The position numbers and the translations under genes are program-made. Shown in pieces: positions 36,500-37,933 of a DNA stretch of 64,000 nucleotides. The stretch is from Martelella limonii (GTDB lineage Bacteria; Pseudomonadota; Alphaproteobacteria; Rhizobiales; Rhizobiaceae): assembly GCF_013344475.1 (NCBI RefSeq), contig NZ_JABUOU010000008.1, positions 1 to 64,000 of the forward strand, in the 5' to 3' direction. The number at the start of each line of letters is the position of its first letter. Position 1 is the stretch's first letter. A model generated the notes under the pieces. The model did not search any database. It was not told the origin of the DNA and saw only the letters and a list, made by a program, of their open reading frames with translations.

Positions 36500-36600
36500 T
36501 TGGAACGGGGCGATCTTTAGGGGTCGCCCTCCCCCTCTTTACCCGGCGTGACCGCTGTGAAGCCGGCAACCGGGTCAGGCGGGCCTCACGGAGCAAAGAA

Positions 36601-36632
36601 AAACCCTCCGAAGCGGATGCTCCGGAGGGTTT
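36601..36632. terminator. Bidirectional terminator between the hydrolase and csp genes
   Basis: AAACCCTCCG and CGGAGGGTTT pair perfectly (10 bp, 12-base loop) between two convergent genes. On the minus strand it is followed by TTCTTT, on the plus strand by the TTT that ends the stem. It should end csp well and the hydrolase moderately. Confidence 0.8.
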
Positions 36633-36659
36633 CAAATGTCAGCCTAAGGCTTTCGCCAA

Positions 36660-36869
36660 TCAGGCGGCGCTGAGGTTTTCAGCGGCGCTCTTGCCGGTGC
36701 GGCGATCGGCGACAACTTCGAAGTTGACCTTCTGGCCTTCAGCAAGCGTGGTCATGCCCGAGCGCTCAACAGCGGAAATGTGAACGAAAACGTCCTTGCC
36801 GCCATCTTCCGGTTCGATGAAGCCATAACCCTTGGTGGAATTGAAGAATTTTACTGTTCCGACGCTCAT
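36660..36869 (-). CDS. Cold-shock-type RNA chaperone (CspA family)
   Basis: Cold-shock proteins are single OB-fold domains that bind single-stranded RNA and melt secondary structure. The 69-residue product has both RNA-binding motifs, KGYGFI (RNP1) and VFVHI (RNP2), in [20 protein letters not shown] and [21 protein letters not shown] precedes the ATG by 5 bases. About 200 bases of A/T-rich leader, with a 16-bp palindrome, lie upstream, as often seen for csp genes under post-transcriptional control. It heads a minus-strand group with the two DUF1127 genes. Confidence 0.95.
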
Positions 36870-36904
36870 AACGATTTCCTTTCAAATCGTGCGTTCAAAG
36901 ATCA

Positions 36905-36920: not shown

Positions 36921-37090
36921 CAGTGCTCGACTTTGATAGGAAGATCGTTCTGTGCGCTCGCGCGCCGACGTAACTTAACAAACAAATTCGATAGTGGCTT
37001 GTTACGCGACATTGAGGATCGGGGCAAGACGCTAAATTTTTAAATTTCGGTACGGTTGACAGAAAAGCAGCCTGCTCAATGCAAAAAAAA

Positions 37091-37119
37091 GCCCCCTGCC
37101 CGGGAGGTGGGCAGAGGGC
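37091..37119 (-). terminator. Terminator hairpin with anti-Shine-Dalgarno loop after the first DUF1127 gene
   Basis: On the minus strand GCCCTCTGCCC and GGGCAGGGGGC pair with one mismatch; the 7-base loop reads ACCTCCC, a copy of the anti-Shine-Dalgarno core. TTTTTTTT follows at once. It is a strong intrinsic terminator 49 bases after the DUF1127 stop. A smaller hairpin (ACCGCC/GGCGGT, about 37133-37152) stands between. It resembles the last unit of a cuckoo-type RNA. Confidence 0.8.
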
Positions 37120-37167
37120 CGTTTGGAAAATGTCACCGCCTCATAGGGCGGTCATGTCCGCGTCCGC

Positions 37168-37311
37168 TTACTTGACTGCCTTGCGGGCAACCTGGCGGAT
37201 ATCTTCGCGGTTGATACCGAGATCGGCCAGCTCGCGGCTGTTCATGCGATTGAGCTCGCTGACGGTCTGACGGTATTTCATCCAGCTGTTGAAGCTACGT
37301 GCCATGCTCAT
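37168..37311 (-). CDS. DUF1127 small protein, copy 1
   Basis: A 47-residue DUF1127 protein: MSMARSFNSWMKYRQTVSEL followed by NRMNSRELADLGINREDIRQ and VARKAVK. The family is arginine-rich and predicted to bind RNA; in Rhodobacter one member (CcaF1) is co-transcribed with anti-Shine-Dalgarno sRNAs and affects RNA stability, and in Brucella and Agrobacterium several are controlled by the LysR regulator VtlR. GGGAG lies 7 bases before the first ATG. Open frame further upstream is not coding-like. It shares its upstream 23-bp block with copy 2 and ends in an anti-SD hairpin. Confidence 0.93.
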   Translation of the reverse strand: MSMARSFNSWMKYRQTVSELNRMNSRELADLGINREDIRQVARKAVK

Positions 37312-37432
37312 ATCAATCTCCCTTCGTTTGAAGGTTTTCGGCGTCGCAATCGTTGCGGCGCATCCCTGTCTTTCGACACTTCGAGATATAGGCCTTTCGG
37401 CCGATGCCTGGCAGGTAGGCAAAAGCAGAAGT

Positions 37433-37455
37433 CCTATGCATTGAATGCAAGGCTG
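37433..37455. promoter_or_regulatory. Shared upstream block of DUF1127 copy 1 (LysR-type T-N11-A)
   Basis: Plus-strand CCTATGCA, five bases, TGCA, one base, GGCTG. The core TGCATTGAATGCA (37437-37449) is a T-N11-A sequence with TGCA at both ends, the signature of a LysR-type operator. The block lies 121 bases upstream of the ATG. A matching block with the same inner spacing precedes copy 2 (37911-37933), so it was probably conserved by selection. Confidence 0.62.
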
Positions 37456-37519
37456 GGAAAAAGCGAATGAAACCGGTACGGCAGCAAGCGAGGAGAAGCG
37501 CCATCAGCACAAAAAAATA

Positions 37520-37552
37520 ACGCTCACCGGGGGAGGAGGATCCGGTGAGCGT
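37520..37552 (-). ncRNA. Cuckoo-like hairpin 3 with intrinsic terminator
   Basis: An 11-bp perfect stem (ACGCTCACCGG with CCGGTGAGCGT) whose 11-base loop reads ATCCTCCTCCC on the minus strand. TATTTTTTT follows, so it is the terminator of the transcript that starts with DUF1127 copy 2. Its CCUCCUCCC loop is the mark of the cuckoo/CcsR RNA family. Confidence 0.82.
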
Positions 37553-37562
37553 CATTTTGGTT

Positions 37563-37599
37563 GGCCGGTGATTTGGGAGGAGGAGGAGGATCACCGACC
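37563..37599 (-). ncRNA. Cuckoo-like hairpin 2
   Basis: CGGTGAT (37566-37572) pairs with ATCACCG (37590-37596), extended by two more pairs after one mismatch. The loop of 17 bases on the minus strand reads CCTCCTCCTCCTCCC plus AA. It lies 10 bases upstream of hairpin 3 on the transcript. No coding frame is plausible here. Confidence 0.8.
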
Positions 37600-37605
37600 T
37601 ATCGG

Positions 37606-37636
37606 AGGGCATTTGGGAGGAGGAGGAGAATGCCCT
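37606..37636 (-). ncRNA. Cuckoo-like hairpin 1
   Basis: AGGGCATT and AATGCCCT pair perfectly over 8 bp; the 15-base loop on the minus strand reads CTCCTCCTCCTCCCA. It begins 22 bases after the stop codon of DUF1127 copy 2. With hairpins 2 and 3 it forms three tandem anti-Shine-Dalgarno stem-loops within 120 bases. Confidence 0.8.
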
Positions 37637-37658
37637 GCGAATTCCTGATTTCAATCGG

Positions 37659-37802
37659 TCAGAATGCGGCCTTGCGGGCAACCCGACGAATATCCTGGCG
37701 GCTGATGCCGAGGTCGGACAATTCACGGGTCGACATCCGGTCAAGCTCGGCAACGGTCTGGCGATACTTCATCCAGTTGTTGAAAGTGCGTGCGACACCC
37801 AT
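37659..37802 (-). CDS. DUF1127 small protein, copy 2
   Basis: A 47-residue paralogue of copy 1: MGVARTFNNWMKYRQTVAEL, DRMSTRELSDLGISRQDIRR and VARKAAF. Thirty-odd positions agree between the two, with the WMKYRQTV and REL-DLGI-R-DIR-VARKA cores fixed. AAGGAAG lies 7 bases before the ATG. Three anti-Shine-Dalgarno stem-loops follow on the same transcript, the same order as the RSP_6037 (CcaF1)-CcsR1-4 locus of Rhodobacter sphaeroides. The protein may bind those RNAs. Confidence 0.93.
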   Translation of the reverse strand: MGVARTFNNWMKYRQTVAELDRMSTRELSDLGISRQDIRRVARKAAF

Positions 37803-37910
37803 GTTCGTCTTCCTTCGTTCGTCTGCGTCTTGATCGACGCTCATCAACTCGTCTTGAACCGGGATATAATCGGTTCATGCGACGGCAGATAGACCCGTTT
37901 CAGCATCCCC

Positions 37911-37933
37911 CCTATGCAAAAAACGCAGGGCTG
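37911..37933. promoter_or_regulatory. Shared upstream block of DUF1127 copy 2 (LysR-type T-N11-A)
   Basis: CCTATGCA, five bases, CGCA, one base, GGCTG: 17 of the 18 fixed positions equal those of the block before copy 1. The core TGCAAAAAACGCA (37915-37927) keeps T-N11-A. The block stands 108 bases upstream of the ATG, close to the 121 of copy 1. A TTATAT (37864-37869, minus strand) between it and the gene could be the -10 element. Confidence 0.6.

Follow-up and report, generated by a model that had tools for sequence, protein, structure and literature searches.

An ar14-family RNA with three anti-Shine-Dalgarno hairpins behind a DUF1127 gene of Martelella limonii, and a predicted LsrB/VtlR-type promoter before the gene

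Small RNAs of the ar14 family are about 115-122 nt long. The studied member of the family is NfeR1 of Sinorhizobium meliloti, which, according to excerpts of two reports, represses mRNAs through three redundant anti-Shine-Dalgarno (anti-SD) loops and is Hfq-independent (PMC10746234, PMC7143759). Six genomic copies of nfeR1 are described in S. meliloti, only one of which gave a reliable northern-blot signal (excerpt of PMC7143759), and LsrB is reported to activate nfeR1 via TGCA-N6-GCAT in the stretch from -72 to -57 (excerpt of PMC10746234). Furthermore, three DUF1127 genes of Brucella are reported to be activated by VtlR (PMC12595884). The pairing of DUF1127 with a CcsR-like RNA is already in print as the 'CIN1 locus', and for the ccaF1-CcsR operon of Rhodobacter sphaeroides a RpoHI/RpoHII promoter is reported (both in excerpts of PMC10253847). 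What the present analysis adds to this known pairing is the promoter link which joins a DUF1127 gene and an ar14 RNA; in the literature searched, the coverage of which was partial, no text joining NfeR1 with DUF1127 was found.

The window, a stretch of 64,000 nucleotides of Martelella limonii (contig NZ_JABUOU010000008.1, positions 1 to 64,000), carries the whole feature on its minus strand, where a DUF1127 gene is followed, after a gap of 13 nt behind its stop codon, by a three-hairpin RNA. The gene (DUF1127 copy 2, 47 codons) occupies 37662..37802 with the stop codon at 37659-37661, and its product of 47 amino acids matches PF06568 with 62.5 bits (cut-off 23.3). The ar14 RNA itself (37515..37645) is supported by its Rfam match and by covariation. 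It consists of hairpin 1 (37603..37639) with the loop CCTCCTCCTCCC at 37615-37626, hairpin 2 (37563..37599) with the loop CCTCCTCCTCCTCCC, and hairpin 3 (37511..37558), an intrinsic terminator by its fold, with the loop CCTCCTCCC and a T run behind it. The loops of all three hairpins are CCUCC repeats. The sequence-only reading of this DNA had described three CCUCC-type hairpins behind DUF1127 copy 2, the last of them a terminator, and both the fold and the RF02344 match confirmed this description, on the minus strand. A second DUF1127 gene (copy 1; 37171..37311, minus strand, 47 amino acids, PF06568 55.1 bits) lies behind ar14. This arrangement, in which ar14 is enclosed by two DUF1127 genes at a distance of about 490 nt, was found in 11 of 13 Martelella genomes, and the neighbourhood of ar14 with a tRNA gene and murA was seen at the Martelella locus only (16 of the 80 murA loci scanned). 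Of these 80 best murA loci, the closest to the window is that of Martelella mediterranea IOP_24, with 96% identity.

By its match to the Rfam model the window RNA is a full-length member of the ar14 family: RF02344 was aligned over positions 1-123 of 123 with 86.8 bits, 28 over the gathering cut-off of 58.8 (E = 2.7e-14), and the three hairpins, the anti-SD loops and the variable stems of the family are all present. The CcsR1 model (RF02791) reached 26.1 bits against a gathering cut-off of 65.3, and 'CcsR-type' was therefore rejected as a family name and is valid as an analogy only. The label 'cuckoo/CcsR-type' of the earlier reading consequently stands for the wide class of anti-SD hairpin RNAs behind DUF1127, which is borne out by the family match and by the linkage described below, and the specific family has to be corrected to ar14/NfeR1. 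The locus likewise shows the arrangement by which the CIN1 locus, or cuckoo RNA, is defined in PMC10253847, namely a short DUF1127 gene beside a CcsR-like anti-SD RNA. Members of ar14 exceeded the cut-off in all 13 Martelella genomes and, among the matches listed, occurred in 60 of the 61 genera sampled from the bacterial family, in 56 of them with a score above the cut-off.

The window RNA shares with NfeR1 (Smr14C2, RF02344) the three hairpins with CCUCCUCCC-type loops on variable stems, the terminator function of hairpin 3 and the match over the whole model. It differs from NfeR1 in its position 13 nt behind a DUF1127 gene without a box of its own, and in its loops, since loop 1 has one and loop 2 has two extra CCT units. 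The order of a DUF1127 gene, then anti-SD RNAs and a terminator, is also that of the ccaF1-CcsR1-4 operon; however, one ar14 RNA stands here in the place of the four CcsR RNAs reported there (excerpt of PMC10253847), and an LsrB-type box plus a -10 element was found before the window gene, where an RpoHI/RpoHII promoter is reported for the R. sphaeroides operon. DUF1127 copy 1 was also considered as a second sRNA locus and was rejected, the ar14 model scoring 21.1 bits there, and a hairpin with one CCTCC loop being present in 4 of 11 orthologs. The terminator-like hairpin of copy 1 (37083..37120, minus strand, a single CCTCCC loop, kept in part of the genus only) resembles a one-hairpin remnant or the start of an ar14-type RNA.

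The three hairpins are a real RNA structure. The fold of the ar14 RNA has an energy of -57.2 kcal/mol (z = -7.07), which was equalled by none of 200 shuffles. Among the Martelella orthologs (11, giving 10 distinct rows) 97.8% of the stem cells are paired, and double changes occur in 11 of 37 pairs against a shuffled mean of 3.3, a count that was reached in 0 of 500 shuffles; when the 3' partners were slid by 1 to 3 columns, at most three double-change pairs remained. Further pair types in these orthologs were no better than shuffles (245 of 500). The ortholog alignment A2 comprised 10 of the 11 orthologs, with L116, whose gap to DUF1127 came out as 122 nt by script, left out. Over the 43 DUF1127-linked members, compensatory double changes were seen, once or more often, in 26 of the 30 predicted pairs, and the loop letters belong to the invariant or nearly invariant columns of the alignment. 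Loop 1, CCTCCTCCTCCC, which has one CCT more than the other aligned members, is kept in 11 of 11 Martelella orthologs. The occurrence of CCTCCTCC in the loops is not a matter of chance: the motif is found seven times in the window (shuffle mean 2.5, seven being reached in 2 of 100 shuffles), and six of these seven copies sit inside the three hairpin loops. The earlier reading had named beforehand the loss of the loops under changing stems in related genomes as the observation that would speak against it, and it was found that the loops are kept and the stems covary.

The linkage of ar14 with DUF1127 was followed over 125 distinct ar14 loci, which are the best of score-ranked lists, and weak ar14 RNAs are under-sampled because the loci came from the top of these lists. 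Classes were set by the nearest upstream DUF1127 gene and by distinct ar14 sequence. Directly behind DUF1127 (stop within 60 nt) stand 51 of the best-scored loci, a further 17 lie 61 to 400 nt behind it, 25 have DUF1127 downstream only, and 32 have no same-strand DUF1127 in the flanks searched (mostly 1.5 kb). DUF1127 matches flanking the 125 loci lie on the same strand 143 times versus once on the opposite strand. These counts leave out eight weak sub-cut-off loci (L127, L130-L136) and the unanchored L128 and L129; the strands of the loci were taken from motif counts, and the gaps of minus-strand loci are approximate. Tandem ar14 RNAs were noticed in other genera, two to four of them behind DUF1127 with 6 to 12 anti-SD hairpins (L214, L186, L205, L196). 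In genome G001, L128 and L129 contain weak ar14 matches that are spaced by about 445 nt and lie at the ends of contigs; L128 has two DUF1127 genes and L129 has one, and each contig carries two composite promoters.

The predicted promoter of the DUF1127 genes has a fixed design, TGCR-N6-GCAT, 45 nt and TAT, which resembles the published LsrB site of nfeR1. The predicted LsrB/VtlR-type promoter of the DUF1127-ar14 unit (37866..37927, minus strand), which is kept in the orthologs with the exact 45-nt spacing, consists of the box TGCGTTTTTTGCAT (37914-37927), 45 nt, and TAT at 37866-37868. Copy 1 is preceded by a predicted promoter built in the same way (TGCATTCAATGCAT, 45 nt, TAT), at 37388..37449 on the same strand. 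The box of copy 1 is an exact nfeR1-type TGCA-N6-GCAT, and that of copy 2 has G for A at position 4; with 45 nt to TAT, both DUF1127 copies have the nfeR1-type site at the published distance, which is a trait of the LsrB/VtlR regulon.

It was then the position of the box that distinguished the classes of loci. Among the best-scored loci, a box in either orientation stands at most 350 nt before DUF1127 in 42 of the 51 directly linked loci (it is missing in nine) and in 11 of 17 of the 61-400-nt group. The 200 nt before ar14 contain a box, again in either orientation, in none of the 51 directly linked loci and in 2 of the 17, and they contain one in 25 of the 25 loci with DUF1127 downstream only and in 14 of the 32 without nearby DUF1127, leaving 18 of these 32 without a box. 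The chance rate, 0.099 matches per kb over the 80 murA loci, corresponds to about 3% of 350-nt stretches with a box by chance. In a first count per DUF1127 gene, 39 of 48 genes with direct linkage had the box, compared with 2.9 on average and at most 8 in 100 controls, these being first-order resamplings and not exact shuffles; among DUF1127 genes lying downstream of ar14 the same count gave 37 of 53, and among the remaining ones 21 of 38. Exactly 45 nt separate the box from TAT[ACT] at 34 of 37 DUF1127 sites with direct linkage, at 28 of 39 downstream and at 9 of 11 other DUF1127 sites; at the boxes before ar14 itself this spacing is kept less strictly (23 of 39 sites, duplicates included). 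Since the box is found before DUF1127 (42/51) and not before ar14 (0/51, as opposed to 25/25 in the other type), the RNA most likely derives from a DUF1127 transcript under LsrB/VtlR. The co-transcription with DUF1127 that the sequence-only reading had proposed thus gains support from the predicted promoters.

Control of DUF1127 genes by LsrB was reportedly described by Kraus in 2020. Because of the design of the promoter site, redox-responsive LsrB/VtlR is the likely activator of the DUF1127-ar14 unit: as in members of the LsrB/VtlR regulon (NfeR1, AbcR1, the DUF1127 genes of Brucella), the box reads TGCR-N6-GCAT and its distance to the -10 element fits the nfeR1 site. Unlike in those members, the predicted box here stands before a single unit that combines DUF1127 with ar14. 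The published box of A. tumefaciens and B. abortus, GCAT-N3-TG-N3-T, is not matched exactly in the window (one mismatch at copy 2, two at copy 1); it is exact in 25 of 35 sites of other genera and in 0 of 56 in Martelella, 42 of these 56 being one position off. Additionally, a LysR gene is flanked by a Pyr_redox_2 gene, which is taken as trxB, on one side and by tandem ar15/AbcR RNAs on the other, as in the published trxB-lsrB/vtlR-abcR order. This regulator was named by gene order and domains, and no NCBIfam family scored over its cut-off (best 25 of 54).

We consider it probable that the window hairpins form a trans-acting sRNA of the ar14 family, which would be released from the 3' end of the DUF1127 mRNA, driven by the LsrB/VtlR-type promoter, and would act by blocking Shine-Dalgarno sequences. 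Transcription would start at the promoter with the box before DUF1127 and be terminated by hairpin 3, the sRNA would be released by an endonuclease cutting between the DUF1127 stop codon and hairpin 1, and its three loops could then block translation by base pairing with Shine-Dalgarno sequences of the GGGAGGAG type, many of the affected mRNAs presumably belonging to nutrient-uptake transporter genes. As just one of the six S. meliloti nfeR1 copies was reliably detected (excerpt of PMC7143759), DUF1127-linked copies may make little stable sRNA, and this detection, together with the 13-nt gap, the terminator-like hairpin 3 and the lack of a box before ar14 in directly linked loci, is also what would be expected if the hairpins acted in cis only, as a 3' UTR and terminator stabilising or tuning the DUF1127 mRNA without any free trans-acting sRNA. 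Such a role is unlikely, since termination does not need three conserved anti-SD loops on changing stems, and NfeR1, which has the same fold, acts in trans in the excerpt of PMC10746234. A promoter of ar14's own inside the DUF1127 gene, independent of the upstream one, appears quite improbable: NfeR1 has its own sigma-70 promoter (excerpt of PMC10746234) and a box-less promoter inside the gene would be compatible with the sequence, but the LsrB-type box that marks the 200 nt before ar14 in every locus of the other type is absent from all of the directly linked ones.

To a comparably low degree we would credit the idea that the main role of the loops is to titrate an RNA-binding protein, possibly the DUF1127 protein itself, or to act as a general decoy of Shine-Dalgarno sequences. 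The DUF1127 protein CcaF1 binds RNA and takes part in the maturation of the CcsR RNAs encoded behind it (excerpts of PMC10253847 and PMC12501420); however, RNA binding was not found for the DUF1127 protein YjiS, short DUF1127 proteins of Agrobacterium act on the kinase PhoR (both PMC12501420), and NfeR1 pairs with mRNA via these very loops (excerpt of PMC10746234). A further, rather doubtful idea is that the DUF1127 protein is a dedicated partner of ar14, so that one LsrB-driven transcript would yield both an Hfq-independent anti-SD sRNA and an RNA-binding protein which matures or guides it. If this were true, redox or nutrient stress would curb uptake via protein and RNA together, and it would become clear whether NfeR1 has a chaperone and which one. 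Three published strands (LsrB and NfeR1, VtlR and short DUF1127 genes, DUF1127 beside CcsR-like RNAs) meet here in one promoter design and one unit, and DUF1127 can thereby be tested as a partner of a family of sRNAs that is Hfq-independent.

For the proposed trans-acting sRNA, the candidate targets were sought as genes with a fully matching Shine-Dalgarno sequence. The pattern GGGAGGAG-N4-10-ATG has 46 matches in the genome against 2 for the reversed pattern; 35 open reading frames remained after the locus itself, one overlapping double and eight sites without a 60-aa frame were dropped and two matches on one gene were merged. A wider first pattern had been read for 14 sites, which were kept only where GGGAGGAG-N4-10-ATG also matched. 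Domains of ABC, TRAP or tripartite-tricarboxylate (TTT) transport were found in 18 of the 35 frames versus 2 of 28 control frames (Fisher p = 2.6e-4), the controls being 32 sites behind two other Shine-Dalgarno sequences, 28 of which had a 60-aa frame. One further GGGAGGAG frame is a sugar porter and two further control frames are exporter-type transporters, and with exporters and the sugar porter counted as transport the figures are 19 of 35 versus 4 of 28, with a weaker p = 0.0014. Uptake transporters, as candidate targets, thus make up roughly half of the genes whose Shine-Dalgarno sequence matches fully. The loops of the AbcR RNAs are similar to those of ar14, therefore the bias is not specific to ar14: it fits the reported targets of NfeR1 and of AbcR without distinguishing one RNA from the other, and strong Shine-Dalgarno sequences on uptake genes may lie behind it.

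As a finder of the regulon, the box by itself was rejected as too common (432 matches in the genome versus 111 reversed), and the composite with the 45-nt spacing performed better, with 8 matches in the 4.54-Mb genome and 1 in the reversed control. Across 13 Martelella genomes the composite has 118 matches versus 10 for the reversed control. In the own genome the composite is found at each of the three ar14 units, before DUF1127 copy 1, before a small gene that is DUF1127-like, and at three further places, one of which was read for open reading frames and lies inside a 499-aa frame. This distribution suggests one promoter design for the RNA and the small protein, predicted also before their relatives elsewhere in the genome, and the composite pattern gives a short genome-wide list of predicted promoters, next to the list of predicted targets from GGGAGGAG-N4-10-ATG. 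The DUF1127-like gene behind a composite promoter is arginine-rich and has 55 codons (L318:1501-1825; own contig C39:95909 on); 21 of 55 aligned columns are identical to the window DUF1127 protein, there is no Pfam match, and a site resembling that of this gene was seen in 13 of 13 Martelella genomes, as judged by eye. The window further contains a cold-shock protein gene (36600-36892, minus strand), where a cspA thermoregulator match of 49.5 bits (E 4.7e-11) falls below the cut-off of 78, and a sul1 RNA riboswitch candidate (RF03058; 32632-32687, plus strand) with 79 bits against a cut-off of 36.2.
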